A DNA stretch of 64,000 nt from contig NZ_CP109599.1 of NCBI RefSeq assembly GCF_036231945.1, positions 558,001-622,000 on the forward strand, read 5' to 3'. This document shows positions 47,867 through 64,000 of this stretch, piece after piece; the first letter of the stretch is position 1; every line of letters begins with the position of its first letter. The DNA is from Streptomyces sp. NBC_01429. GTDB taxonomy: Bacteria; Actinomycetota; Actinomycetes; Streptomycetales; Streptomycetaceae. Below the pieces are notes generated by a model. The model saw nothing but the letters and a program-made list of their open reading frames with translations. It had not been told where the DNA came from and searched no databases. The position numbers were made by a program, and so were the translations under genes.

Positions 47867-49823
47867 AAGTGCCTCCTGAGGTGCGGTTGTCCGGGAACGA
47901 GGGGGCGTTACGGGTACGGGCGGCCGCGCGGCGGGCACCGCGGGCGCCGCGGCGGCGCGCTCCCCGGGCGACTCCCGCCGCTGAGTCCTCCTGGCCGCTC
48001 CCGATGAGCCGGGCCAGGCCGCGGACGGTCGGTGCGCGGTACAGGTCGGTCATCCGCAGCGCGGGCGCGAGGGTGCGGGTGAGCCGTTCGTGCACGGCGG
48101 CCACCCGCAGCGAAGTGCCGCCGAGATCGAAGAAGTTGTCGTCCGGGCCGACCGTGCCGACGTCCAGTACCTCACGCCATGCCTCGGCCACCGCCCGCTC
48201 CAGCGCTCCGGCTCCGACGGGCGCGGCGCCGCTGTCCCGCGCGGTGGCCCGCGCCGGTTCCGCTGCCACCGAGGGGGCCGGCAGCGCGGCCCGGTCGATC
48301 TTGTGATTGGGCGTCAGCGGCAGCTCGGCCAGCGGGACGAACGCGGTGGGTACGGCGTGGTCGGGCAGCACGGCACGCAACGCGGCCCGCAGGGCGGCCG
48401 GTTCGGCAGTCACCCCGTCGGACGCCACCAGATACGCGGCCAACTGCCGTTCTCCCGACCGGTCCTCGAACGGCATCACGACCGCCTCGCGCACCTGCGG
48501 CAGGTCCTTCAGCGCGCTCTCCACCTCCCCGGTCTCCACCCGGATCCCGGAGATCTTCACCTGGAAGTCGCGCCGCCCGATCAGCAGCAGCGTGCCGTCG
48601 TCCAGCCGCCGGGCGAGGTCACCGGTGCGGTGGGTGCGGCCGTCCGGGACCGCGCCCGGTGCGAGATAGGCGCTTTCGACGACGATCTCGCCCTCGCCCG
48701 GCCCCAGTACCGGGCGGCCCTCGGCGTCCTCCAGCCGTACGGCCGTCTCCGCCACCGGGAACCCCAGCGGGAAGACGCCGGTGGGCGGTCGGTAGTCCCG
48801 GTCGGCGACCCGCAGCAGGGCGCAGGAGCACTCGGTGGACCCGTAGGCGCCGGCGACGCGGCAGTGCGCGCCGAAAGCCCGCCGGGCGGCGTCGAGGTCG
48901 GCGAGGTGCAAGGTGTCCCCGCCGAGCGCCAGCATGCGCATCCCGGGCAGTTCGGTGGTGCGCGACTCCATGGCCCGCACCAGCGCGCGGAAGACGGGGA
49001 GCGTGGAGTGGTAGACCGTGACGCGCTCGGCGGCCATCCAGTCCAGCAGGCCGCCGATGCCCAGGGCCTTCAGGTCGACCGGGTAGAGCGCGGCCCCGTT
49101 GAGGAGCGCGGCGAAGGTGTCCTGGACCGCGGAGTCCCAGCTGTAGGCGGACTGGAGGGTGACGCGGTCGAGCGGGCCGATGCCCAGCCCGTCGGTCCAG
49201 GCCCGGGTGTGGTGGAGCACGTTGCGGTGGGTCTGCGTGACGGGCTTGGGCCGCCCGGTGCTGCCGGAGGTGTGGAGGACGTATGCCTCACTGCCGGGAC
49301 GCACCGGCGCGGGCGGCGCGCTGTCCGCCGGCGCCCCCGGTCCGGCCCCGGCGATGGCGTCGCCGGCCGTCCGTACCAGGTCCTCGTACGCCAGCACCGG
49401 CCGCGTGCCGGCGATCCGGCGGGCCGCCCGCGCGTGGGCCGAGACGGCGACCAGCGCGCGTACGCCCGCGCCGTCGGCCAGGTGGCCGAGCCGGGGCTCC
49501 GGGTAGGCGGCGTCCAGCGGTACGTAGGACATACCGGCGCGCAGCACCCCGAGGAGCGCGGCGATCATCTCCGCGCCGTGCGAGAAGAGCAGCCCGATCC
49601 GGTCGCCGGGCCGCAGGCCCGCCGCCGCCAGCGCGGCGGCGACCCCGGCCGAGCGCCACGCGGTCTCCCGGTAGGTCCACCGGACCTCGGGGGTGACCAC
49701 GGCCTCGCGTTCGGGGTGCGCGGCGGCCTGTTCCAGGAAGCGGCTCACCAGTGTGCCCGCGCTCCGCGCGGTGGGGAACGGCCGGTGTCCCGTGTCCACT
49801 TCGGATACCGCGTCCGCCGTCAC
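47859..49823 (-). CDS. NRPS adenylation-carrier didomain (A-T), probable loading unit
   Basis: A 654-residue protein with GTG 49823 overlapping the MDR stop. A domain (about 25-520) has TSGSTGRPKPV, GAYGSTEC, HRTGDLARR, GRRDFQVKISG and PLTPNHKIDR. The carrier (near 590) has FFDLGGTSLRV. By-eye alignment gives the code DSQHAGACAK, which I do not match to a known substrate; Asp at the first position favours an amino acid. Position before the PKS module suggests it loads the starter, perhaps the amino acid made by the upstream AroA-like, aminotransferase, FrhB and MDR enzymes. Confidence 0.92.
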   Translation of the reverse strand: MTADAVSEVDTGHRPFPTARSAGTLVSRFLEQAAAHPEREAVVTPEVRWTYRETAWRSAGVAAALAAAGLRPGDRIGLLFSHGAEMIAALLGVLRAGMSYVPLDAAYPEPRLGHLADGAGVRALVAVSAHARAARRIAGTRPVLAYEDLVRTAGDAIAGAGPGAPADSAPPAPVRPGSEAYVLHTSGSTGRPKPVTQTHRNVLHHTRAWTDGLGIGPLDRVTLQSAYSWDSAVQDTFAALLNGAALYPVDLKALGIGGLLDWMAAERVTVYHSTLPVFRALVRAMESRTTELPGMRMLALGGDTLHLADLDAARRAFGAHCRVAGAYGSTECSCALLRVADRDYRPPTGVFPLGFPVAETAVRLEDAEGRPVLGPGEGEIVVESAYLAPGAVPDGRTHRTGDLARRLDDGTLLLIGRRDFQVKISGIRVETGEVESALKDLPQVREAVVMPFEDRSGERQLAAYLVASDGVTAEPAALRAALRAVLPDHAVPTAFVPLAELPLTPNHKIDRAALPAPSVAAEPARATARDSGAAPVGAGALERAVAEAWREVLDVGTVGPDDNFFDLGGTSLRVAAVHERLTRTLAPALRMTDLYRAPTVRGLARLIGSGQEDSAAGVARGARRRGARGARRAAARTRNAPSFPDNRTSGGTCD

Positions 49824-50938
49824 CTGGGGGCGCTCCCCTCGGGCGGGCCGTAGCCGAAGAGGACGGCGGGGTGCGCGGGCCGCTCCCGCAGCTGTGCGTA
49901 GGCCGGGGCCGCCCGGTCCAGCGTGAACCGCGGCAGCCCCATCGCCGAGGGGCGGATGGCGTCGGAGTCGATCAGGTCGAGGGCTCGCTGGAGGTTCTCG
50001 GTGACCGTGCCCTCACCGTCCGGTGCCGTGACGTCGCGCAGCCCGCGCGCGTACGCGGCGTCCCGGTATCCGGCGCCGCAGCGGGCCGCGTACCGGATGT
50101 CGAGATTGCCCAGGTCCACACTGAAGTCGATGCGCGCGGCGAAGCGGCCGACGCCGACCAGCCGCGGCCGGCCCGGTGCCCGGCCCGCCCAGCGGGCCGC
50201 GGCGGCGATCGTGCCGCCCGCGTCCCCCGTACCGCACAGGAACACGCACCGGCCGCCGCTGGCGCCCGCCGGCTCCTCCTCCTGGCGGGTCTTCTCCAGG
50301 AAGCTCGCGTCATCGGCGGCGGCCAGCCCGAGCGCGGCCGCCGTACGCAGCCGCTCGGGGCGCAGATCGACCAGCGTGACCCGCGCACCGTGCGCGGCGG
50401 CGGTCTGCGCGACCAGTTGTCCGACCATGCCCGCGCCGATCACGGCGACCTCGTCGGCGGGGTCCAGCATCGCCCGGTCCACCGCGTGCACGGCCGTCGC
50501 CGCCAGGCCCGCCACCACCGCGTCCGCCAGGTCCAGGGCATCGGGGACGCGGCGGCACAGCAGGTAGGGGACGGTCACCGCCTCGCTGTGCACGGCCTCG
50601 CCCCAGCCCATCGCGATCACCCGGTCGCCGGGCACGTATCCGGGGACCTCCGGGCCGACGGCGTCCACCACCCCCGCCGAGCAGTAGCCGAGGGGGAACC
50701 GCTCCCCGGTCCGCGCGCTGCGGTCCAGATAGTGCAGCTCGGTCCCGGGACTGACCAGGCTCCACGCGGCACGCAGCCGCAGCTCGCCGCGGCCCGGCGG
50801 CTCGCGCCGCACCTCCTCCACGACCGGCTCGGCGGCGCCCTTCGCGACCAGCTGCCGTACCAGCAGGGCTTCTCCGGCCGATGCCCCGGCCGCCTCCGAT
50901 TCCGTACGCGCCACCGGAGCGCTGTGCACCGCGGTCAT
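49820..50938 (-). CDS. Medium-chain dehydrogenase/reductase (zinc-ligand-poor)
   Basis: A 372-residue MDR protein with ATG overlapping the FrhB-type stop. PGTELHYLDRS, PLGYCSAGVVDAVG and VAVIGAGMVGQLVAQTAAAHGARVTLVDLRPERL show the GroES-like and Rossmann parts. The usual structural-zinc Cys cluster is absent. It resembles sugar- or tetrapyrrole-type MDRs rather than classical alcohol dehydrogenases. In this operon it probably reduces or oxidises the precursor handled by the FrhB-type protein and aminotransferase. Confidence 0.85.
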   Translation of the reverse strand: MTAVHSAPVARTESEAAGASAGEALLVRQLVAKGAAEPVVEEVRREPPGRGELRLRAAWSLVSPGTELHYLDRSARTGERFPLGYCSAGVVDAVGPEVPGYVPGDRVIAMGWGEAVHSEAVTVPYLLCRRVPDALDLADAVVAGLAATAVHAVDRAMLDPADEVAVIGAGMVGQLVAQTAAAHGARVTLVDLRPERLRTAAALGLAAADDASFLEKTRQEEEPAGASGGRCVFLCGTGDAGGTIAAAARWAGRAPGRPRLVGVGRFAARIDFSVDLGNLDIRYAARCGAGYRDAAYARGLRDVTAPDGEGTVTENLQRALDLIDSDAIRPSAMGLPRFTLDRAAPAYAQLRERPAHPAVLFGYGPPEGSAPR

Positions 50939-52152
50939 TTGCCGCCCTCCTCTTCCGGAGCCGCGATCAGCCGTTCGTCCGGCACGATCTCCAGCTCTTC
51001 CCGATAGCCCGGTATCGGCCCGAGCGGCACCGGCCCGCCGGACCGCTCGTAGGACGCCCGCCGGTTGCGTTTGCGCTCCAGCCCGAGATTGAGGCCGGCC
51101 AGATCCACCGGCGTATGGCTGAGCAGACCTCGGTCCACCCCCGCGGCGACCGCCTCCGCCCCGGCCCGCGTACGGATGAACACCCGCCCGCGCTTGGCCT
51201 GTCCGACGCCGGACACACTCGCGGCGAAGATGTTCGGATCGCCGTCGCTGACACTGACGTCGGCCAGCCCGGACATCCAGTCGCCGCAGGACAGACAGCG
51301 GTGTGTCTTGTTGCCCGCGAAGTCCCGCACCGCGCGCCAGAACTCCACCCGGTGGTCCGTGCCGTCGTCCGTCCGGATGCCGATGTCGCCGGGATAGGCG
51401 CCCTCGCGGTAGCGCAGCCGTACCACGGAGTCCAGCGGGACGCCCGCCCGTTCGCGGATCACGGCGGCGGTGCCCTCGGGGCGCGTACTGGACGAGCAGG
51501 CGGGCTCGATCAGGAGCACCACGTGGTCGCGCGCCCAGCGGCCCGCCGCGGTGTCCATCGCCTGGAGCTTGCGCATGGCCTGGATGTGGCAGGCCACTCC
51601 GGTCATGGCGACCCGGGCGTCCGGCTCGTCGAGCATGAGATGCCGCAGTTCCCCTAAATAGGGGGCGAGTTGATAGGTGGACTGGGCGGTCTCCACCAGT
51701 TCGCCGGGGGCCCGTACCAGCACCGGCGCGGCCCGCCAGGGCTCCCGCTCGTCCCGTCCCATCGAGAGCACCGCCGTCACCCCCAGCTCCCGCATGGCGA
51801 CCTGGAGCAGGGCGGTGAGGCTGCCGCCGCTCGCGGACGCCTCGTAGACCTCGGGGTCCAGGGAGTGCCCGGCGACCACCTCGGAGAAGACCCCGGTCCA
51901 GCGCTCCTGCGGGGTCCGGGTGCGGCCGAACAGCCGTGCCTCGGCGGCCGGGGTGCCCGGGTCGGCTCCCGGGCAGACATCGACGCAGTCGGTGCACTCC
52001 CCGCAGTCGGAGACGGTCCAGGACTCCGCGGTGAGCACGGGCTCCAGTCCGTCGAATCCGATCACACCGGCGGGGCAGGCCAGTTGGCAGACCCCGCACA
52101 CGGCGCACAGCCCCGGTGCCAGTACGTCCTTCTCCAGCTGCTGGAACGTCAT
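50935..52152 (-). CDS. FrhB-type Fe-S flavoprotein (coenzyme F420 hydrogenase/dehydrogenase beta family)
   Basis: A 405-residue protein with ATG overlapping the aminotransferase stop. The N-terminus has two [4Fe-4S] ferredoxin motifs (CAVCGVCQLACP, CGECTDCVDVCP). FrhB N and C domains follow (YEASASGGSLTALL, MTGVACHIQAM, HRCLSCGDWMSGLADVSVSDG). Relatives transfer electrons from F420H2 or ferredoxin through FAD to organic substrates, including C=C reduction. Codon 166 is TTA, so translation should depend on the bldA tRNA in Streptomyces. A precursor-reducing role is inferred. Confidence 0.88.
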   Translation of the reverse strand: MTFQQLEKDVLAPGLCAVCGVCQLACPAGVIGFDGLEPVLTAESWTVSDCGECTDCVDVCPGADPGTPAAEARLFGRTRTPQERWTGVFSEVVAGHSLDPEVYEASASGGSLTALLQVAMRELGVTAVLSMGRDEREPWRAAPVLVRAPGELVETAQSTYQLAPYLGELRHLMLDEPDARVAMTGVACHIQAMRKLQAMDTAAGRWARDHVVLLIEPACSSSTRPEGTAAVIRERAGVPLDSVVRLRYREGAYPGDIGIRTDDGTDHRVEFWRAVRDFAGNKTHRCLSCGDWMSGLADVSVSDGDPNIFAASVSGVGQAKRGRVFIRTRAGAEAVAAGVDRGLLSHTPVDLAGLNLGLERKRNRRASYERSGGPVPLGPIPGYREELEIVPDERLIAAPEEEGGK

Positions 52153-53531
52153 ATGCGACCGCCCCCGTACGCAGCTCCCCCCGCCGCCGACCGTGGTCCC
52201 GTCCGTGGCGCGGGCTCGGCCCCCGCCACCGCCGCCGCGATCGCCTCGATCATCCAGCGGTAGTCGCTCTCCTCCAGCAGCGCGGGCGGCACGACCTTGA
52301 CCGTGGCGCCCTCCGGGCCGCCGCCGAACAGCAGCAGCCGCCCGCGTAACGCGCCGCCGGTCACCGCCTTCGCCAGTCCCGGGTCGAAACTCCCCTCGCG
52401 TACGCAGTCGAAGGCGCCCAGCGCCCCGGTCGTACGGACGGAGCGCATCCACGGGTGGCGGGCGGCGAGCGCCAGCAGATCGGTACGCAACCGCTCACCG
52501 AGCGCCCGCGCGCGGCCCGCCACGTCCTGCCGCACGATGATCTCCAGGACAGCCACGGCCGCCGCGCAGGCGACGGGGTGGCCGGAGAAGGTCGAGGTCT
52601 GCACACTCGGCGGCAGCGCGTCCAGCACGGCTCGCTCCCCCACCACCGCGGCGACCGGGAAGCCGTTGCCCAGCGTCTTGCCGAGCAGCGTCAGGTCCGG
52701 GACCTCGGTCATCAGCTCGGCGGTGAACAGCCGCCCGGCGCGCCCCAGTCCCGTGTAGATCTCGTCCAGCACCAGCAGCGCGCCTCTGGAGTGCGCCTGC
52801 CGGGCGATCTCGTCCAGGATCGCGGGCGGTACGGCCAGCACGCCCTCGGTCACCTGGACGGGTTCGACGACCACAGCGGCGGTGCCGCCGCGCCGATCGG
52901 CGTCGTCCAGGGCCGCGGACAGCCCGGCCGCGAAACGTGCCACGTCGTCGGCCGCGCCCTCGACCCGGGGGTCGGGCAGTTCCGCGACGACGACATGGTC
53001 CGGCCGCGGTCCGCCGTAGGTCTTGAACTCCGCCCGCCAGGTCAGCGCGAGCGCTCCGGCGGTCTTGCCGTGGTAGCCGTGGCGGAAGGCCAGCACGGCC
53101 TGGTGTCCGGTGGCGGCCCGCGCGATCTTCAGCGCCGACTCCACCGCCTCGGCGCCGGTCGCGGTGGGCAGCACCGCGGGCTCCGTGTACGGGGACAGGG
53201 CGCCGATCCGCTCGATCATGCGCCTGCGGGTGTCCGAGCCCAGCTTGCAGCCGGTGTGCGTGAGGCGGTTCAACTGGGCCGCCACGGCCGCCGTGACGTC
53301 CGGGTGCTGATGGCCCAAGGTCGCCGCGCCGCTGCCGGCCGTCCCGTCGAACCAGGCGGTGCCGTCCTCGGTGTGGAGCCAGGGGCCGCTGCCGGTGCTG
53401 AATTCCGGCCCGAGTGTGGTGCCGGTGGACCGTGCCTCCACCGCACCGCGCTGTCCGCTCTCCCGACCCCGGGCACCGTCCACCGCGTCTTTCACTCCCT
53501 CGGCCGTCGCATCGGTCATCGCTTCGGTCAT
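52149..53531 (-). CDS. Class III PLP-dependent aminotransferase
   Basis: A 460-residue fold-type I enzyme with ATG overlapping the AroA-like stop. Motifs are LPTATGAEAVESALKIARAATG, FRHGYHGKT, LVLDEIYTGLGR (Asp256) and the PLP Lys285 in LLGKTLGNGFP. Class III enzymes act on amines distal to the carboxylate as well as on alpha-amino acids. Codon 395 is TTA. Beside the AroA-like enzyme it may aminate a cyclic keto acid to give a non-standard amino acid for the A-T loading unit (inference). Confidence 0.9.
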   Translation of the reverse strand: MTEAMTDATAEGVKDAVDGARGRESGQRGAVEARSTGTTLGPEFSTGSGPWLHTEDGTAWFDGTAGSGAATLGHQHPDVTAAVAAQLNRLTHTGCKLGSDTRRRMIERIGALSPYTEPAVLPTATGAEAVESALKIARAATGHQAVLAFRHGYHGKTAGALALTWRAEFKTYGGPRPDHVVVAELPDPRVEGAADDVARFAAGLSAALDDADRRGGTAAVVVEPVQVTEGVLAVPPAILDEIARQAHSRGALLVLDEIYTGLGRAGRLFTAELMTEVPDLTLLGKTLGNGFPVAAVVGERAVLDALPPSVQTSTFSGHPVACAAAVAVLEIIVRQDVAGRARALGERLRTDLLALAARHPWMRSVRTTGALGAFDCVREGSFDPGLAKAVTGGALRGRLLLFGGGPEGATVKVVPPALLEESDYRWMIEAIAAAVAGAEPAPRTGPRSAAGGAAYGGGRI

Positions 53532-54994
53532 CGCTGGCCGTCCTCCGCAATCCGGGCGCCGACGGCGCGTTGTACATCGGCGAAGCCGGGGAACGACGTG
53601 CGGTGGCAGGCCCCGCCGCGCACCGTGGTGCGTCCGGGCAGACACATCCCGAGCGTCGCCGCGGCCATGGCGACGCGGTGGTCCTCGAAGCCCGGTACGG
53701 TCCCGGCGCGCAGCGCGGCGCCCCCGGTCACCGTCAGCCCGTCCGCGGCGACCTCCACCCGGCCCCCGAACGCGCCGACCATGCGGGCCGTCGTCGCCAG
53801 CCGGTCCGTCTCCTTGAAGCGCAGCTCCTCGGCGCAGCCGATCCACGACGTGCCCGGCAGCAGGGCGGCGACCGCGGCGAGCAGCGGCACCTCGTCGATC
53901 AGCGCGTGCAGGACGGCGGGATCGTCGACCCGTACCGAATCCAGGCCGTCCAGCCCGCCCCTGGCCACCACCGTCCCGGTCGGCTCACCGCCGCTGGTGG
54001 ACCGCTCGTCCTCGTACGAGATGTCCGCACCGGCCCGCCGCAGCACCTCGAAGAAGCCCAGCCGGGTCGGGTTGAGGCAGACACCCGGCACACGCAGCAC
54101 CTCGCCGTCGCCCCACATCAGATGGGCCGCGACGGGATACGCCGCGAGTGAGGGGTCGGCGGGGACGTCGATGACGGGCGGGACCGTGTACGGGCCGCCG
54201 TCCCAGATGAGTTCGTGTTCGGTCCGGGTCAGCCCCGCGCCGAACGCGGCGAGCATCCGTTCGGTGTGGTCGCGCGAGCGGACGGGGTGGCGCACGGTCG
54301 CGGGCAGCCCCGCCGCGGCCACGGCGAGCAGCACCGCGGAGCGCGCCTGCGCGCTCCCCACCGACAACCGCACCGCTCCGGGCCTGCACACCGGTCCGCC
54401 CACCAGCACGGGCAAGCATCCCGGGTCGCCCAAGTAGTCTATTTCGGCGCCGAGTTCGGCCAGTGGGTCGACGATCCACTCCATCGGCCGGTGCCGCAGC
54501 ACCTCGTCCCCGTCCACCACGGCGCGGGTTCCGGTCCCGGCCAGCACCCCGATCAGCAGCCGCGCGGCGGCGCTGGACCCGCCGGTCTCCAGGTACGGCG
54601 CGTCGTCCGGCCAGGTGTCGATGTCAGGATGTCCGCGGACCGGCTGCCGGACGGGCCGGGCACCGCGCCGTACGGTGAGTGTGTCCCGCTCGATGTCCAC
54701 CCGCAACCCCAAGGCGCGCAAGGCGGGGAGCAACGCCCGTACGGCGCCGCCCGAGTTGGCGTTGCGCACCGTGAGGACGGCGGGGGCGCCGGGCAGCAGG
54801 GCGGCCAGCAGTGCCCGATGACTCACGGACTTGTCGCCCGGCACGGCGACGGCCAGTGGCCCCTGGCCGCGTGCCGATCTGCCGCCGTCCACCACGAGAT
54901 GCGGCGCCTGCGTGGCCGGCCTGTCGAATTCCCGGACCACTTCGCGGCCGGTTCCGTGGACGGCTTCCTGGATATCCTTCCGGGCCTCAAGCAC
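53528..54994 (-). CDS. EPSP synthase (AroA)-like enolpyruvyltransferase homologue
   Basis: A 488-residue protein, GTG 54994 with GGGAG six bases upstream, first gene of the operon. AroA landmarks are present: GDKSVSHR (Lys55, Ser56, Arg60), RPM (Arg169), SAQ (214-216), IDEVPLL, EELRFKETDR and DHRVAM. The PEP/glyphosate loop NxGT is changed to GSSA in GGSSAAAR (138-145), and the C-terminal Lys equivalent to E. coli K411 seems absent. It has about 30 extra N-terminal residues. It may use another shikimate-like substrate, dehydrate it, or be an insensitive second copy. It is unlikely to be the housekeeping enzyme. Confidence 0.87.
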   Translation of the reverse strand: MLEARKDIQEAVHGTGREVVREFDRPATQAPHLVVDGGRSARGQGPLAVAVPGDKSVSHRALLAALLPGAPAVLTVRNANSGGAVRALLPALRALGLRVDIERDTLTVRRGARPVRQPVRGHPDIDTWPDDAPYLETGGSSAAARLLIGVLAGTGTRAVVDGDEVLRHRPMEWIVDPLAELGAEIDYLGDPGCLPVLVGGPVCRPGAVRLSVGSAQARSAVLLAVAAAGLPATVRHPVRSRDHTERMLAAFGAGLTRTEHELIWDGGPYTVPPVIDVPADPSLAAYPVAAHLMWGDGEVLRVPGVCLNPTRLGFFEVLRRAGADISYEDERSTSGGEPTGTVVARGGLDGLDSVRVDDPAVLHALIDEVPLLAAVAALLPGTSWIGCAEELRFKETDRLATTARMVGAFGGRVEVAADGLTVTGGAALRAGTVPGFEDHRVAMAAATLGMCLPGRTTVRGGACHRTSFPGFADVQRAVGARIAEDGQR

Positions 54995-56835: not shown

Positions 56836-58221
56836 TCACCGGCTGATCCGCGGTCGCAGAGCAGCGCTCGAACGGCCCTTGAGCGCGGACAGCCACACCC
56901 CGGCCCCGTACGCGAGGTCGTCCAGTCGCCGGGCGACGCCGTAGCGGACCGGGTCCAGGGCGACCCGGTCGCGCCGGTATTCCAGCGCGAGGTCCGCGAG
57001 CGCGGCGACCGCCGCGGCCCGGCGCGCGCGGCGGGAGACGAGACATCCGAGGACCGTGAGGGGCCACCAGTGCCGGGTCAGCAGCGCGGAGGTCTGGGTC
57101 ACCGCGCCGAAGGCTCCGTTGGCGGTGAGCCGCAGTGCCAGCCGGTGCGGGTGCCGGGTGCCGTCGACCTTGCGGGCGATCTTCAGGCTGACACCCGCGA
57201 GGACGGCTCCGGCAGCGGGCACCGACCAGCGCCGCTGGACGAGCAGCAGAGCGATGAAGGCCAGGCTCCACGGGGCGAACACGGCCGGTGCGATGAACCC
57301 GGGGTGACGCTCGGCGAGCGGATGCGCCCCGGTTCCGTACACGGCCTTGCGGAGGAACCAGTCGTCGAGGCGCGTGCGGTGCTCGTGTGCGGCGGTGGCG
57401 CCGGGCTCGTAGCGCACCCGCCGGCCCCGTTCTATCAGCCGCCAGCACAGATCGACGTCCTCACCGACTCGCATCCGGTCGTCGAAGCCGCCCTCCAGAG
57501 CGTCCGTCCGCACCACGGTGCAGGCCGTGGACGCCCAGGAGACGGGGGTGCCCGGGCGCACGGCCGCCGGGTGCGCGCCCAGGTCCAGCGCGGACCGGGC
57601 GTGCTCGTAGCGCGCGATCCACCCCGCCCGGGGCACCGGCAAGCCGGTGATGCGGGGTACGGCCATGGCGACCCTGGGGTCGGCGAAGTGCCGCAGCAGT
57701 GTGGGGAGGGTGTCCGGGGTGAGCACGATGTCCGAGTCGGCGAAGACCACGAAGGGAGTCGTGACGAGCCGCCAGCCCGCGTTGCGTGCGCCTGCCGGTC
57801 CCACGTTGACCGGCAGGGACACCAGCCGGGCCTCGTGCTCGGCGACGACGGCGGCGACGGCCTCCGGGTCGCGCGAGCCGTCGTCGACCACGATCACGGG
57901 CTGCCCGGCGCCGATGCTGGCCAGGAGACGGGCGAGTTGCCGCGGGCGGTCCCGTACCGGAACGACCACGGTGTAGCGCGGCTCCGGGGGCGCCGGGAGC
58001 CTCTCGACGACGGGGTTGGCCATGCCGAGTTCGAGGAGGCGGTCCGCCAGCAGGGCGCTCGCCGCGTCCCGCACCCGCATCGTGGCGCCGGTGAAGAGGC
58101 GTTGGGCCCTCGGGGTCAGCCGGATCAGCCGGGTCGGGAATCCGCCGACGAGCGCCCGCCCGCCGTCGAGGACCCGGGTGTGCCGGTCGAGCGCGATCAC
58201 GAAGCCGTGGGGAAGCGTCAT
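56836..58221 (-). CDS. mftF: Mycofactocin system glycosyltransferase MftF
   Basis: A 461-residue GT2-family protein, ATG 58221 overlapping the mftE stop. An N-terminal ~85-residue region precedes the GT-A domain: YTVVVPVRDRPRQLARLL, VIVVDDGSRD, VVFADSDIVLTPDTL (DxD) and MRVGEDVDLCWRL. Hydrophobic segments near 320-410 suggest membrane association. In the known pathway MftF adds an oligoglucose chain to the AHDP-derived redox cofactor. Gene order in the mft operon supports the name. Confidence 0.93.
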   Translation of the reverse strand: MTLPHGFVIALDRHTRVLDGGRALVGGFPTRLIRLTPRAQRLFTGATMRVRDAASALLADRLLELGMANPVVERLPAPPEPRYTVVVPVRDRPRQLARLLASIGAGQPVIVVDDGSRDPEAVAAVVAEHEARLVSLPVNVGPAGARNAGWRLVTTPFVVFADSDIVLTPDTLPTLLRHFADPRVAMAVPRITGLPVPRAGWIARYEHARSALDLGAHPAAVRPGTPVSWASTACTVVRTDALEGGFDDRMRVGEDVDLCWRLIERGRRVRYEPGATAAHEHRTRLDDWFLRKAVYGTGAHPLAERHPGFIAPAVFAPWSLAFIALLLVQRRWSVPAAGAVLAGVSLKIARKVDGTRHPHRLALRLTANGAFGAVTQTSALLTRHWWPLTVLGCLVSRRARRAAAVAALADLALEYRRDRVALDPVRYGVARRLDDLAYGAGVWLSALKGRSSAALRPRISR

Positions 58222-59030
58222 CGGGGCACACTCTCCGTTCGGGGTGGAACGCACGCGGCCCCGGTGCCCGGCGGTGTCGCCCGCTGAGCGGGATCGATGA
58301 GCCGACCGCGGCTGTCGACCGTGTGCGCGGTGATCCGCCGCAGGGCCGCTGACACCATGGCCTCCGTTGTCCGGCGCCCCTCCTCGGCCGTGGCGCCGGT
58401 CGGATCGCCGAGCACACCGGAGGCGGACACCGCCCGGACGCCGTGCGCCATCAGCTCCGGCATGAGCTCGGTCAGCGGCCGCACGTCCCCGACGACGGCG
58501 GCCGCGAGCCGTACCCGTTCCGGGGCCAGGTGCAGCATCACCGACGTCTCGGTGCGGCCGGCGTGCGGGTCGCCGCCCGGAACGTCGCAACCGGTCCACG
58601 CGACGTCGTGACCCTCGGCCCGCGCCTGCCCGAGGGCGGCGTCGAGCGTGACGACGTTCCCACCGTGGCCGTTGACGAAGACCACACGCCCCGCCCACCG
58701 GCCGAGCGAGCGCACCATCTCCACGATCACCGTGCGCAGCGCCTCGTGCCCGATGGACACCGTGCCGGGGAAATCGGCGTGTTCACCGCTGGCGCCGTAC
58801 ACGAGCGGCGGCGCCACCAGCGGTGTGCGTCCCGGCGGGGCGGGCAGGATGGCCGCCACCCGGTGCGCGACAGCGGCGGCGATGACGCTGTCGGTGTCGA
58901 AGGGTAAGTGCGGACCGTGCTGTTCGATGGAGCCGATCGGGACCAGGACCAGCGCGTCCGAGGGGATCAACGGCCAGGTCGTGCCCGCCAGTTCACGCCC
59001 GGACGGGGGCCCGGTGATGTCCTGTGTCAT
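58218..59030 (-). CDS. mftE: Mycofactocin precursor peptide peptidase MftE (creatininase family)
   Basis: A 270-residue creatininase-fold protein overlapping mftD and mftF by 4 bp. Metal and active-site motifs are VPIGSIEQHGPHLPFDTDS, NGHGGN and AGRTETS (Glu). MftE releases the modified C-terminal Val-Tyr dipeptide from MftA. Codon 42 is TTA, a bldA-type codon. The C-terminal tail of about 20 residues is Pro/Arg-rich and variable. Confidence 0.94.
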   Translation of the reverse strand: MTQDITGPPSGRELAGTTWPLIPSDALVLVPIGSIEQHGPHLPFDTDSVIAAAVAHRVAAILPAPPGRTPLVAPPLVYGASGEHADFPGTVSIGHEALRTVIVEMVRSLGRWAGRVVFVNGHGGNVVTLDAALGQARAEGHDVAWTGCDVPGGDPHAGRTETSVMLHLAPERVRLAAAVVGDVRPLTELMPELMAHGVRAVSASGVLGDPTGATAEEGRRTTEAMVSAALRRITAHTVDSRGRLIDPAQRATPPGTGAACVPPRTESVPR

Positions 59031-60229
59031 GGTCGGACGACCGGCGACCGGGTGGTGGCCCCGAGGGCCAGGGGGAAGCCTGGTGGTATCACGAGGTCCT
59101 CGGGGGACAGTTCGTGGACCGAGGAGTGACCGAGGCCCAGTACGGCCGAGTCAAGCCCGCCGCGCAGGATGTCGAGCACGTTCTCCACACCGGCCTGTCC
59201 GTTCGCCGCCAGGCCCCACAGGTAGGCGCGGCCGATGAGGACGGCTCGCGCACCGAGGGCCAGGGCCTTGGCCACGTCCCCGCCGCGGCGGACGCCGCCG
59301 TCCATCAGAACCTCGATCTGGTCGCCGACCGCTTCCACCACGGAGGGCAGTATCCGGATGGTGGCGGGGGTGGTGTCCAGGTTGTTCCCGCCGTGGTTGG
59401 ACACCGACAGCGCCGACACGCCCGCGTCCACGGCCCGTTTGGCGTCGTCCACCCTGGCAACGCCCTTGAGCAGGAACGGGCCGCCCCACTCCTCCCGCAG
59501 CCAGGCGACGTCCTCCCAGGTCGGCGGGGCCGTCTGCATCCATTCGCCGTAGGCGCCGAAGAAGGTGGGGGTTCGGCCGTCGGGCGCTCGCAGGTTCGGG
59601 GTGGTGAGGTCGGGGAGGCGGCCGGACTTCGCGTACGTCCACAGCCAGCCCGGCCGGGGCAGCACGTCGGGGGCGAACCGCAGTGCGGTCCTCAGGTCGA
59701 GCCTCTCCGGAATGGCGGGGCTCCCCCAGTCCCGGCCGTTCGAGAAGGACCAGTCGAGGGTGACGATGAGCGCCTTGGCACCGGCGCTCCGCGCCCGGTC
59801 CATGCGCTGCACCATCGACGCGCGAGTGCCGCTCCAGTACAGCTGGAAGAAGATGTCGGGACCCGCCGCGGCGACCTCTTCGACCGGCTTGCTCGCGTAC
59901 GAGCTGAGTCCCATGACGACGCCCCGGCTCGCCGCGGCACGCGCCACGGCCACCTCGCCCTCCGGATGCACGGCCTGGACGCCGGTCGGGGAGATGAGAA
60001 CGGGCAGCGAGGTCGGAACACCCAGTACGGTCGTGGCCAGGCTCCGCTGCGCGTGATGGCCCACGACGCGCGGGATGAAGCCGAGTTGGGCGAACGCCTC
60101 GGTGTTCGCGTCGATCGTACGGCCGCGCTCCGAGCCCGCGACGAGGGCACCGTAGACCGGGCTCGGGAGTCGTCTCTTGGCGCGGCGCTGCGCCTCGGCA
60201 ACCGTCTCGAACCAGGGGTTTCTAGGCAT
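59027..60229 (-). CDS. mftD: Mycofactocin maturation FMN enzyme MftD
   Basis: A 400-residue FMN-dependent alpha-hydroxy-acid dehydrogenase-like protein, ATG 60229. Motifs are SLPVLISPTGVQAVHPEGE, FQLYWSGTRAS, FLLKGVARVDDAKRAVDAG, LSVSNHGGNNLDT and MDGGVRRGGDVAKALALGARAV. The NHGGNN form in place of NHGGRQ is typical of MftD, which oxidatively deaminates the AHDP intermediate to premycofactocin. A 274-bp gap with a GT-rich tract separates it from mftC. Confidence 0.94.
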   Translation of the reverse strand: MPRNPWFETVAEAQRRAKRRLPSPVYGALVAGSERGRTIDANTEAFAQLGFIPRVVGHHAQRSLATTVLGVPTSLPVLISPTGVQAVHPEGEVAVARAAASRGVVMGLSSYASKPVEEVAAAGPDIFFQLYWSGTRASMVQRMDRARSAGAKALIVTLDWSFSNGRDWGSPAIPERLDLRTALRFAPDVLPRPGWLWTYAKSGRLPDLTTPNLRAPDGRTPTFFGAYGEWMQTAPPTWEDVAWLREEWGGPFLLKGVARVDDAKRAVDAGVSALSVSNHGGNNLDTTPATIRILPSVVEAVGDQIEVLMDGGVRRGGDVAKALALGARAVLIGRAYLWGLAANGQAGVENVLDILRGGLDSAVLGLGHSSVHELSPEDLVIPPGFPLALGATTRSPVVRP

Positions 60230-60503: not shown

Positions 60504-61754
60504 CTACAGGAGACGCAGCCCGGCCAACGGGTCCTCGGCGCAGGCGCTCACCGGAGGTCTCTCCAGGTCCTCGCGACGTCCGAGTACGAGATCCACCGGC
60601 CCTGTCCGCCCGCGCGGGGCGGTGCGGCGCGAGTGGTCCACCGAGGAGTGGGGAACCGACGCGCCGTCGTCCGGACGCCGGGCGAGGCTCTCCTCCCCGA
60701 ATCCGCGGACGCATTCGGGGTCGGGACCGTCGAGGGGCAGCCCGGTGAAGAACTTGGCCGCCATGCACCCGCCCTTGCAGGTGTCGTAGAAGGCGCAGGA
60801 CGAGCAGGCTCCGCCGCTCTGCGGGGTGCGCAGTTTCCGGAACAGTTCCGACTCACGCCAGACCTCGGTGAATCCGCCGGGCCCACGGACGTTTCCGGCG
60901 AGGAAATCGTCGTGGATGGCGAACGGGCAGGCGTAGACGTCACCGACCGGGTCGATCAGGCAGACGACACGTCCGGCCCCGCACAGGTTGAGACCGGGCA
61001 GCGCCTGGCCGTAGGCGGAGAGATGGAAGAACGAGTCACCGGTCAGGACCTGTTCGCCGTGGTCGAGCAACCAGTCGTACAGTTGACGCTGTTGGGCACC
61101 GGTGGGATGCAGCTCGTCCCAGACGTCCGCGCCTCGCCCGGAGGGGCGCAGGCGGGTCAGGCGCAGCTGGGCGTGGTAGCGGTCGGCGATTTCCTTGAAC
61201 TGGTCCAGCTGGGAGATGTTGTGCCGGGTGCACACCACCGACAGCTTGAAGTTCTTCATCCCGGCGTCGGCGAGGTTCTTCATGGCACGCACGGCCGTGG
61301 CGTGGGAACCGGCGCCGCGTATGGCGTCGTTGACGTCCGCGGTGGCTCCGTCGAGCGAGATCTGCACGTCCACGTAGTCGTTGCCTGCCAGGCGGCGGGC
61401 CGCGTCGGGAGTGATCCGGGCCCCGTTGGTGGAGAACTTCACCCCCACGCGGTGGGCGGTGGCGTAGTCCAGGAGTTCCCAGAAGTCGGAGCGCAGGGTG
61501 GGTTCGCCGCCGCCGATGTTGACGTAGAAGACCTGCATGGCCTCCAGTTCGTCGATGACGGCCTTGGCCTCCGCCGTGGTCAGCTCGCGCGGATCGCGCC
61601 TTCCGGAGCTGGACAGGCAGTGGGTGCAGGCCAGGTTGCACGCGTACGTCAGTTCCCAGGTGAGGCAGATCGGCGCGTCGAGTCCGTACTCGAACAGGTC
61701 GACCAGCCGCGAGGCGCCCGGCACGGGTTCCTCGGTCTTCGCCAAGGCGGTCAT
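60504..61754 (-). CDS. mftC: Mycofactocin radical SAM maturase MftC
   Basis: A 416-residue radical SAM/SPASM enzyme, ATG 61754 overlapping the mftB stop. The SAM cluster is CNLACTHC (Cys39, 43, 46), then GGGEPTLR and VQISLDG. The C-terminal SPASM Cys pattern is CGAGRVVC, YACPFAIH, CSSCAFYDTCKGGC and PECV. It decarboxylates and then crosslinks the terminal Val-Tyr of MftA with the help of MftB. A tail of about 60 residues beyond the SPASM domain is low-complexity and probably dispensable. Confidence 0.95.
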   Translation of the reverse strand: MTALAKTEEPVPGASRLVDLFEYGLDAPICLTWELTYACNLACTHCLSSSGRRDPRELTTAEAKAVIDELEAMQVFYVNIGGGEPTLRSDFWELLDYATAHRVGVKFSTNGARITPDAARRLAGNDYVDVQISLDGATADVNDAIRGAGSHATAVRAMKNLADAGMKNFKLSVVCTRHNISQLDQFKEIADRYHAQLRLTRLRPSGRGADVWDELHPTGAQQRQLYDWLLDHGEQVLTGDSFFHLSAYGQALPGLNLCGAGRVVCLIDPVGDVYACPFAIHDDFLAGNVRGPGGFTEVWRESELFRKLRTPQSGGACSSCAFYDTCKGGCMAAKFFTGLPLDGPDPECVRGFGEESLARRPDDGASVPHSSVDHSRRTAPRGRTGPVDLVLGRREDLERPPVSACAEDPLAGLRLL

Positions 61755-62026
61755 GGGTTCCTTCCTACGACCATCGACGACTGGGCGAGGACGGTGAGTG
61801 CCCTGCCGTAGGCGGGCAGTTCGTCCTCGTGGACTCCGGCGGTGAGGCATGCCAGGCGCGCCGTGGGCGCGTCCGCGAGCGACTGCACGACCGCGAGCAG
61901 TCGGCGGTCCTTGAGGAATGAGAGTCTGCGCGTCCCGAAGTGGTAGAGAAGCGCGCCGAAGGGTTCGGGCCGCACCGAGACCTGAGTGTGCAGATCCCAG
62001 CCGCGGTCGAGGTCGACCGTAGTCAC
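61751..62026 (-). CDS. mftB: Mycofactocin precursor chaperone MftB (PqqD-like RRE)
   Basis: A 91-residue protein with GTG 62026, ten bases after the mftA stop. The MftB/PqqD-like fold is recognisable: GWDLHTQVSVRPEPFGALLYHFGTRRLSFLKDR. It binds the leader of MftA and presents it to MftC. A 4-bp overlap with mftC points to stoichiometric co-expression. Confidence 0.93.
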   Translation of the reverse strand: MTTVDLDRGWDLHTQVSVRPEPFGALLYHFGTRRLSFLKDRRLLAVVQSLADAPTARLACLTAGVHEDELPAYGRALTVLAQSSMVVGRNP

Positions 62027-62035
62027 GGGGGCTCC

Positions 62036-62170
62036 CTAGTAGACGCCGCACATGCCGTCGATGGAAATCTCCTCGATGAGGTCCACGGCTTCGATCAACG
62101 CCTCGGTGGTCACGTCCTCCTCGGACTCGGCGGACGGAGCAGAGCTGAGCTCGTTCATGTGGCTCTCCAT
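62036..62170 (-). CDS. mftA: Mycofactocin precursor peptide MftA
   Basis: A 44-residue acidic peptide from ATG 62170; ATG 62158 (40 residues) is a close alternative, as both have GGAG-type sites. The C-terminus IDGMCGVY is the invariant MftA core, whose last Val-Tyr becomes mycofactocin. The leader is rich in Glu/Asp and includes VTTEALIEAVDLIEEISI, the part bound by MftB. It lies between mftR and mftB. Confidence 0.95.
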   Translation of the reverse strand: MESHMNELSSAPSAESEEDVTTEALIEAVDLIEEISIDGMCGVY

Positions 62171-62239
62171 GGGTAGGCTCCGGCGGCTCCGCGGCAGTGC
62201 GCGGCGAGCCGCTCCGTTCGAACACCCAGAGAGTAATGA

Positions 62240-62252
62240 CACCGGGTGCCAA
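62240..62252. promoter_or_regulatory. Candidate MftR-type site upstream of mftA
   Basis: CACCGGGTGCCAA lies 70 bp upstream of the mftA start, in the short mftR-mftA gap. The same 13-mer with one mismatch occurs at 63126-63138 in the mftR-mftG divergent region. Sharing between the two promoter regions of the locus suggests a common regulator, most simply MftR. Confidence 0.5.
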
Positions 62253-62280
62253 AAGTGAAGGGGATCGGCGTCGCCAGTTC

Positions 62281-62940
62281 TCAACAGCCGTGCGACCGTT
62301 GGCATTTCCGCCGGGTTTCGGCCAGGGGGCCGAAACCTGAGGCGAGGTGCCGCAGGGAGGCGTCGAGGAGCTCCTCCAGGCTCGCCGCCTCGTCGGTCAG
62401 CCAGTGCTCGTAGGAGGCGATACACGCGGCCAGGACCGTGTGCCCGATCAGCCGGGGTGTCATGTCGGAGCGGTCCAGCTCCATGCGCCGGGCGGCGAAC
62501 CGCGTGACCAGCTCCCGCCACGACGCGTAGCGCAGGGCCGAGTCGGCCTGGAGTGTGGGAACCCGCAGGATCAGCGACATGCGTTGCCGGTGCCAGGTCA
62601 CCACGGAGGTGTCGAACCGGTTGAACTCGACCACCGCGCCCCTCAGCGCGTCCATGGTCGGGAGGGCGGGATCGGCGGCGGCCAGCAGGGCTTCGAGCCT
62701 GACCAGCTGTCCCTCGAAATCTCCCCACACCAGGTCGTTCTTGGAGGCGAAGTAGCGGAAGAAGGTTCGACGGCCGATTCCGGCCGCGGCGGCGATGTCA
62801 TCGACGGTCGTCCGGTCGAAGCCGTGCCGGGCGAACAGCTCGAAGCCCAGTTGTTCCAGCGCGTCCCGCGAGGTCACCCGTGGCCGGCCCGCCCTGCCCT
62901 GCCCCACGGTGACGTCGGCCTTACCCCGATGGCTCTCCAC
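62281..62940 (-). CDS. mftR: Mycofactocin system TetR-family regulator MftR
   Basis: A 219-residue TetR protein. GTG 62940 with GGGGGAGGAACTCGG upstream is the best start, although the frame extends to ATG 63015. The HTH is FARHGFDRTTVDDIAAAAGIGRRTFFRYFASKNDLVWGDFE, typical of MftR. The ligand domain has HRQRMSLILRVPTLQADS. It is upstream of mftA on the same strand and divergent from mftG. MftR is known in mycobacteria as an acyl-CoA-responsive repressor of mft genes. Confidence 0.92.
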   Translation of the reverse strand: MESHRGKADVTVGQGRAGRPRVTSRDALEQLGFELFARHGFDRTTVDDIAAAAGIGRRTFFRYFASKNDLVWGDFEGQLVRLEALLAAADPALPTMDALRGAVVEFNRFDTSVVTWHRQRMSLILRVPTLQADSALRYASWRELVTRFAARRMELDRSDMTPRLIGHTVLAACIASYEHWLTDEAASLEELLDASLRHLASGFGPLAETRRKCQRSHGC

Positions 62941-63125
62941 CCGAGTTCCTCCCCCGTGCCATGGCCGGGCGACTCCCGGCAACGGGAAGCCTACGAGGTC
63001 TCCCGCAGGCCGCACGCTCCTGAGCGTGCGGCCGCCGGAACGGCTGTCGCGGTCCCGCGCCGGATCACGCGCGGTTGTTCTCTTCCCCGCGGGGCTCGGT
63101 TATGTTGGCCTCCATCGAGTTTCAG

Positions 63126-63159
63126 CACCGAGTGCCAATATCCCGGGGGCAGTTGGCAC
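63126..63159. promoter_or_regulatory. Candidate MftR operator between mftR and mftG
   Basis: CACCGAGTGCCAA (63126-63138) matches the site upstream of mftA at 12 of 13 positions. In addition GTGCCAA at 63132-63138 is inverted as TTGGCAC at 63153-63159 with a 14-bp spacer, giving a 28-bp dyad of the size used by TetR-family dimers. Confidence 0.55.
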
Positions 63160-63241: not shown

Positions 63242-64000
63242 ATGCGGGCGTCCCGCGAGGTCACCCCGTTGAGCCGGTACGACGTGATCGTCGTCGGAGC
63301 CGGGGGCGGCGGGGCGCCGCTGGCCGCGCGGCTGAGCGAGGACCCCGACCGTACGGTGCTCCTCCTGGACGCGGGGCCGGTACCTCGGTCGCTCGCCGAG
63401 TTCCCGGACGAGCTGCTGGACGCGCGGCTGGTTCCGGGCGCCCGGGCCGGGAGCCACGCTGTCCAGCCGTTCCCCGTCCAGCTGACCCCTGACCATCCCT
63501 ACACCGTGCCCCGCGGCCGGTACCTGGGCGGCTCCACCACCGTCAACGGGGGCTACTTCGTCCGCGCGCGCCGCGCGGACTTCGACCGCTGGGCCGCGGC
63601 CGGGAACCCCGCCTGGGCCTACGAGCGCGTCCTGCCGTTCCTGCGCATGCTGGAGACCGACCTCGACCACGGCGCGAGCCACCTGCACGGAGGCGGCGGA
63701 CCGGTGCTCGTCCGGCGCGGCGGCCTCGGGCACCCCGCCGCCGCGGCGTTCGAAGCCGCCGCGCTGGAACTGGGCTTTCCCCGCGAGCCGGACAAGAACG
63801 ACCAGGCCGGGCCCGGCTTCGGCCCGGTGCCCGCCAACGCCGTCGACGGCATACGGCGCAACACCGGCGTCAGCTATCTGCTGAGCGCCCTCGACCGGCC
63901 GAATCTGACGGTGACCGGGCATCGCCGCGTGCGCAGGGTGGTCGTTTCGCACGGCCGCGCCACCGGCGTGGTCGTCGACCGGGGCGGGCGCGGCCACGTC
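63242..64000 (+). CDS. mftG: Mycofactocin-associated GMC oxidoreductase MftG (C-terminus beyond window)
   Basis: The frame continues past the right edge; about 253 residues are seen. It is a GMC-type FAD oxidoreductase: YDVIVVGAGGGGAPLAARLSED (FAD loop), then RGRYLGGSTTVNGGYFVRARRADFDRWAAAGN. ATG 63242 is the listed start, but TTG 63269 has a better Shine-Dalgarno (GAGG 8-9 bases ahead) and matches the usual beginning of the family. MftG is thought to move electrons from mycofactocinol to the respiratory chain. It is divergent from mftR. Confidence 0.9.
   Translation, partial: MRASREVTPLSRYDVIVVGAGGGGAPLAARLSEDPDRTVLLLDAGPVPRSLAEFPDELLDARLVPGARAGSHAVQPFPVQLTPDHPYTVPRGRYLGGSTTVNGGYFVRARRADFDRWAAAGNPAWAYERVLPFLRMLETDLDHGASHLHGGGGPVLVRRGGLGHPAAAAFEAAALELGFPREPDKNDQAGPGFGPVPANAVDGIRRNTGVSYLLSALDRPNLTVTGHRRVRRVVVSHGRATGVVVDRGGRGHV

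Follow-up and report, generated by a model that had tools for sequence, protein, structure and literature searches.

Predicted MftR operators upstream of mftA and between mftR and mftG in the mycofactocin locus of Streptomyces sp. NBC_01429

Two related palindromic motifs in the mycofactocin locus of Streptomyces sp. NBC_01429 are very probably operators of MftR, the TetR-family repressor encoded between them; we infer binding, repression, the position of the promoter and the ligand from sequence. Taken separately, the site upstream of mftA (site 1) is almost certainly an MftR operator, and the site in the spacer between the divergent mftR and mftG genes (site 2) is probably a genuine, lineage-specific operator for mftR and/or mftG. 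The original prediction proposed a candidate MftR site from a 13-bp motif shared by the two places and from an inverted repeat, GTGCCAA-N14-TTGGCAC, at the second. The candidate site stands, as it is conserved in all 21 loci from MftR-bearing Streptomyces, absent from the 8 loci of MftR-less ones, and matches Omft, the footprinted operator of M. smegmatis; the proposed unit does not, because a palindrome within each site most likely takes the place of the N14 repeat. If so, an operator described in mycobacteria would become a regulatory code across actinobacteria.

The mycofactocin locus and its gene order

The window (the whole 64-kb stretch of DNA that was analysed) contains a mycofactocin locus, as had been proposed from the letters alone: mftA, mftB, mftC, mftD, mftE, mftF, and mftR all score above the cut-offs of NCBIfam equivalog models. 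The minus strand carries mftF (56836-58221, TIGR03965), mftE (58218-59030, TIGR03964), mftD (59027-60229, TIGR03966), mftC, encoding the radical SAM maturase (60504-61754, TIGR03962, 649 bits), mftB (61751-62026, TIGR03967), and mftA (62036-62158, TIGR03969, 37 bits against a cut-off of 25), which encodes the 40-residue mycofactocin precursor with the C-terminus IDGMCGVY. These are followed on the same strand by mftR (62281-62940, start codon uncertain), whose TetR-family product scores 269 bits with TIGR03968 against a cut-off of 224.9 and contains the TetR_N and TetR_C_14 ("MftR C-terminal domain") domains. The divergent gene on the plus strand, mftG (63269-64000, start codon uncertain), encodes a GMC oxidoreductase and crosses the end of the window. 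TIGR03970 matches its N-terminal half, with a score below the whole-protein cut-off because the window end cuts the gene; the full-length product in L084 has 516 amino acids. Adjoining the locus on the minus strand (49820-54862) is a row of EPSP-synthase-like, class III aminotransferase, FrhB/FdhB-like ferredoxin-type, and dehydrogenase-like genes, which may form a small biosynthetic cluster.

We found mftC in 28 of 392 sampled Streptomyces genomes, giving 29 loci. Most of these have mftR, a convergent mftG, and then mftA divergent from mftG, with a single operator between mftG and mftA. L124 (Streptomyces sp. SolWspMP-5a-2, MftR 85% identical) has the same mftG / mftR / mftA order as the window, and in L127 mftR likewise lies immediately before mftA.

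Structure and rarity of the two sites

Both 13-mers are where the original prediction placed them on the plus strand, CACCGGGTGCCAA at 62240-62252 and CACCGAGTGCCAA at 63126-63138. Each covers an arm and the centre of a GGCA-N5-TGCC palindrome, and the true symmetry of each site is that of an imperfect palindrome of 19 bp: AATGACACCGGGTGCCAAA has its centre at 62244 and TTCAGCACCGAGTGCCAAT at 63130. The minus strand reads TTTGGCA-CCCGG-TGTCATTA at site 1 and ATTGGCA-CTCGG-TGCTGAAA at site 2. Seven of the eight core letters are present in each (the arm at fault is TGTC in site 1 and TGCT in site 2), and the outer T-N2/N2-A flank letters are partly present. Predicted operator 1, of the Omft type (TTTGGCACCCGGTGTCATTACTC; 62231-62253, minus strand, core 62238-62250), is centred 86 bp before the mftA ATG, with mftR adjacent. 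Predicted operator 2, of the same type (TTCAGCACCGAGTGCCAATATCC; 63121-63143, plus strand, core 63124-63136), lies between the divergent mftR and mftG.

The operator of M. smegmatis MftR was defined by a DNase I footprint as TCCATTCTGGCACTCGATGCCATATAT, with the palindrome T-N2-GGCA-N5-TGCC-N2-A (Mendauletova and Latham, PMC8728441). A matrix built from Streptomyces sites only gives this operator 18.3 bits, a score equalled by 1 of 20,000 shuffles. The same authors report that M. smegmatis MftR bound unhindered when the palindrome carried single substitutions; thus, sequence by itself is a loose guide.

Within the window, the motif is unremarkable when up to two mismatches are allowed (6 matches versus 4.1 expected). 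Across the 8.08-Mb genome, the exact pattern CACCGRGTGCCAA occurs twice, both times in the mft locus, and its reversed control does not occur. Searching with the fuller operator pattern, at two mismatches or fewer, again finds just these two places, site 2 being the sole match besides site 1; a third place requires three mismatches, and the reversed control has 8 matches at up to three. In leave-one-out scoring, site 1 reaches 37.0 bits, the highest value in the window, and site 2 reaches 25.7 bits, whereas the next-best unrelated site in the 64 kb has 6.0. Across the 29 loci, the 846,038 positions that lie beyond the 550-bp regions preceding mftA, mftB, mftR, and mftG all score 13.3 or less. 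The MftR regulon predicted for this one strain would comprise two sites at whole-genome scope. A weak operator-like site of about 12 to 13 bits, TTTGGCGTCCCATGCCAATCACG, is present 10 kb past mftG, outside the window (L084:17889-17911, 74889 on the window scale).

The operator accompanies MftR

Motif discovery in related mft promoters, the check suggested along with the original prediction, found the operator blind: Gibbs sampling upstream of mftA, with no motif supplied, recovered the palindrome in all 21 Streptomyces loci whose genomes have MftR; operator 1 is also kept in L124. In the 8 loci from seven MftR-less genomes, the sampler returned another motif and not the palindrome. Leave-one-out scores were 20.6 to 38.1 bits in the former versus at most 2.7 in the latter, where a larger pseudocount raised the best score to 6.2 (L090). 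In L088 and L089, tblastn missed mftA or recovered too little, and 550 bp ahead of mftB served as the upstream region instead; the L080 contig stops before mftR, and the MftR of that genome is encoded on a different contig.

In a genome-wide search, 21 of the 28 mft genomes had an MftR above the family cut-off; they are exactly the operator-bearing ones, and the remaining seven had only weaker TIGR03968 relatives. The chance of such a split is 1 in 4,292,145 if loci are taken as independent, but they are actually related; on the MftC tree, the MftR label needs four changes, at least three of which are forced by well-supported branches. L069 and L075 retain the mft operon and mftG, have neither MftR nor the operator, and group with the operator-bearing L076, L077, and L079. 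This provides an internal control: with no regulator there is no operator, while the cofactor genes persist. It is this pattern of co-occurrence that links the motif to MftR itself. L069 and L075 also have in common a different mftG-mftA spacer.

Beyond the genus sample, all 62 testable MftR loci from the named and class-level sets have an operator-like site of at least 8 bits upstream of mftA (best of both strands); 56 reach 15 bits, 50 exceed 18.0, and 47 reach 20. The named set comprises 80 loci, of which 58 (L124-L181) were scanned as MftR relatives and 22 (L182-L203) form a paralog set. Some of the 58 (e.g., L173-L175 and L180) are low-identity relatives with no mftA in the locus; mftA was detected in 43 named loci, and 40 were left once L126, L135, and L137, with too little upstream DNA, were set aside. 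The class set consists of the best-scoring 30 loci among 97 matching genomes, and these 30 all have a site of at least 12 bits near mftR; mftA was detectable in 22 of them. Because the named, class, and genus sets overlap (L128, for example, is by its length the contig of L077), the counts are not independent.

Operator-like sites were also seen next to other genes. In Actinoplanes, Actinoallomurus, and Actinocorallia (L135:3628-3650, L136:2853-2911, and L138:6436-6458), strong sites are found by SDR genes that resemble the mycofactocin-coupled SDR of the window, and so the MftR regulon may include client enzymes of the cofactor in other genera. In Frankia (L154:4941, L161:4917, and L166:4917), an operator is immediately upstream of mftR, and no mftC was found within the locus; in L154 and L161, it is also just upstream of a long divergent oxidoreductase-like ORF.

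Promoter elements and a proposed mechanism

A putative -10 element of the mftA promoter, TACTCT (TANNNT; 62230-62235, minus strand), touches operator 1, and a putative weak -35 element, TTCACT (62254-62259, minus strand), is 18 bp away from that -10 element. A consensus scan for a sigma-70-type promoter at the site gave no match, and the -35/-10 reading thus rests on conservation. TANNNT occurs at this offset in 18 of the 21 loci from MftR-bearing Streptomyces, in 34 of the 40 testable named loci, and in 8 of the 22 class loci; by eye, a similar element is placed one base earlier in mycobacterial-type sites among the class loci. In the genus loci, a partly conserved TTCACT/CTTCCT block, the CTTC-type flank, is found 18 bp ahead of the -10-like element. 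Comparison of the spacer with Rfam gave no structured RNA at the gathering threshold.

Since the palindrome of site 1 occupies the promoter spacer and abuts the -10-like element, MftR most likely acts on mftA as a repressor that blocks RNA polymerase. In the mechanism that we propose, an MftR dimer would occupy the GGCA-N5-TGCC palindrome. Bound to site 1, it would cover the spacer and the -10-like edge of the mftA promoter and keep RNA polymerase off the mftABCDEF operon, and at site 2, in the divergent spacer, it would most likely damp mftR and/or mftG. A metabolic ligand would free MftR from the DNA and allow the cluster to be expressed.

Alternative explanations

The motif might belong to a different regulator acting on mft genes, for instance a TetR relative from the same subfamily whose gene lies elsewhere in the genome. 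Weaker TIGR03968 matches do exist, three more of them in the NBC_01429 genome and others in all seven genomes without a true MftR, yet the eight mft loci of those seven genomes lack the motif, which tracks MftR. In a negative control of 22 loci of distant TetR relatives (L182-L203), where sites were unexpected, 11 carried an operator-like site of at least 8 bits ahead of the regulator gene itself. A threshold of 8 bits thus does not single out MftR, nor is this type of motif confined to it; the motif type looks like a subfamily trait. However, the best of these sites scores 18.0 bits, whereas mftA operators in the genus score at least 20.6, and we consider it improbable that another regulator owns the motif at mft genes. 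TGACAC-N3-GTGTCA-like palindromes often precede the TetR gene in the control loci and might represent a subfamily-wide autoregulatory code. It is harder still to credit that the conserved block is the mftA promoter only, made of sigma-factor elements with no repressor involved: the TANNNT element and the CTTC-type flank do belong to the block, but most of its information is in the palindrome that matches the footprinted Omft, and the block is absent where MftR is absent though the mft operon persists (L069 and L075).

For site 2, the competing view is that site 1 is real and site 2 is a functionless chance resemblance. Neither L124 nor L127, the two nearest loci that have mftR directly before mftA, yielded site 2; the site has one imperfect arm (TGCT), and its neighbour TATCCC is without the final T of TANNNT, leaving no complete -10-like element alongside. 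Against chance, its leave-one-out score falls among those of the mftA operators and far from the 13.3-bit maximum of the outside positions, it is the second of only two matches in the genome at up to two mismatches, and it is located in the promoter spacer shared by mftR and mftG. We regard a chance resemblance as rather unlikely and continue to read site 2 as a probable operator. The GTGCCAA-N14-TTGGCAC repeat is indeed present here on the plus strand (GTGCCAA at 63132-63138, TTGGCAC at 63153-63159), and it could be the operator or mark two cooperating operators; operator-like pairs 31-32 bp apart (about three helical turns) are found in three separate settings (L085/L086, L136, and L177), and the outer arm here implies about 30 bp. 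Such repeats are of ordinary frequency, however: the window has 372 perfect 7-bp inverted repeats with loops of 3-20, or about 5.8 per kb, and the N14 repeat is within chance. The outer arm has no operator-like partner either, as no nearby position exceeds -8 under the symmetric operator matrix, and we judged it a non-operator. Two cooperating operators 30 bp apart were rejected for this locus, and a role of the repeat in any such form is very unlikely; the GGCA-N5-TGCC palindrome in each site is most likely the binding unit. A CIRCE-like heat-shock element was rejected as well. CIRCE, the operator of HrcA, has 9-bp arms separated by 9 bp; its half-site resembles GAGTGCCAA, and a second arm is absent at that spacing here.

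DNA contacts and ligand pocket of MftR

Mutation of Asp38 or Arg48 abolished or weakened DNA binding by M. smegmatis MftR, and Arg47 is the proposed salt-bridge partner (PMC8728441). With residue numbering carried over from M. smegmatis by motif spacing, Asp38, Arg47, and Arg48 are present in all 20 aligned MftRs of the genus; the position of Arg29 is His in the window MftR. In M. smegmatis the ligand is long-chain acyl-CoA, and oleoyl-CoA binding was undetectable without His68 (PMC8728441). The window MftR has Gln at position 68 (across the 20 genus proteins, Gln in 11, Glu in 6, and His in 3) and Gly at position 67, versus Ser67 of M. smegmatis, with Asp16 kept; it therefore lacks the His68 and Ser67 pair of the M. 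smegmatis acyl-CoA site. With Gln in place of His68, induction by acyl-CoA is not assured and cannot simply be carried over.

A more speculative proposal is that the lineage with mftR between mftG and mftA gained the second MftR operator, in the mftR-mftG spacer, which would place the repressor and the mycofactocin-oxidising MftG under one switch with the biosynthetic operon, a switch answering to a ligand other than long-chain acyl-CoA. The different ligand is suggested because the His68/Ser67 acyl-CoA site is missing from most Streptomyces MftRs, and we hold the proposal as a whole as no better than tentative. A changed ligand pocket outside mycobacteria would bear on when bacteria need mycofactocin.

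Comparison with known systems

Our literature search, with subscription papers mostly outside its scope, found no paper on a Streptomyces MftR operator. The distant TetR relatives of the control set are similar in having a palindrome upstream of the regulator in about half of the 22 loci, with TGRCAC-N3-GTGYCA-like sites; they differ in that these sites are untied to mft genes and score lower under the MftR matrix. The Streptomyces motif appears to be largely the expected extension of an operator type, Omft, described in M. smegmatis and other mycobacteria (PMC8728441). The two have in common the GGCA-N5-TGCC palindrome, a TetR-family MftR that keeps the HTH residues Asp38, Arg47, and Arg48, and a position just upstream of mftA. 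Unlike Omft, the Streptomyces operator has the consensus TTYGGCACNCGGTGYCATTA and is placed in most sampled loci as a single site between mftG and mftA, and Streptomyces sp. NBC_01429 has its second site between mftR and mftG, together with an MftR in which the ligand-pocket His68 of M. smegmatis is Gln.
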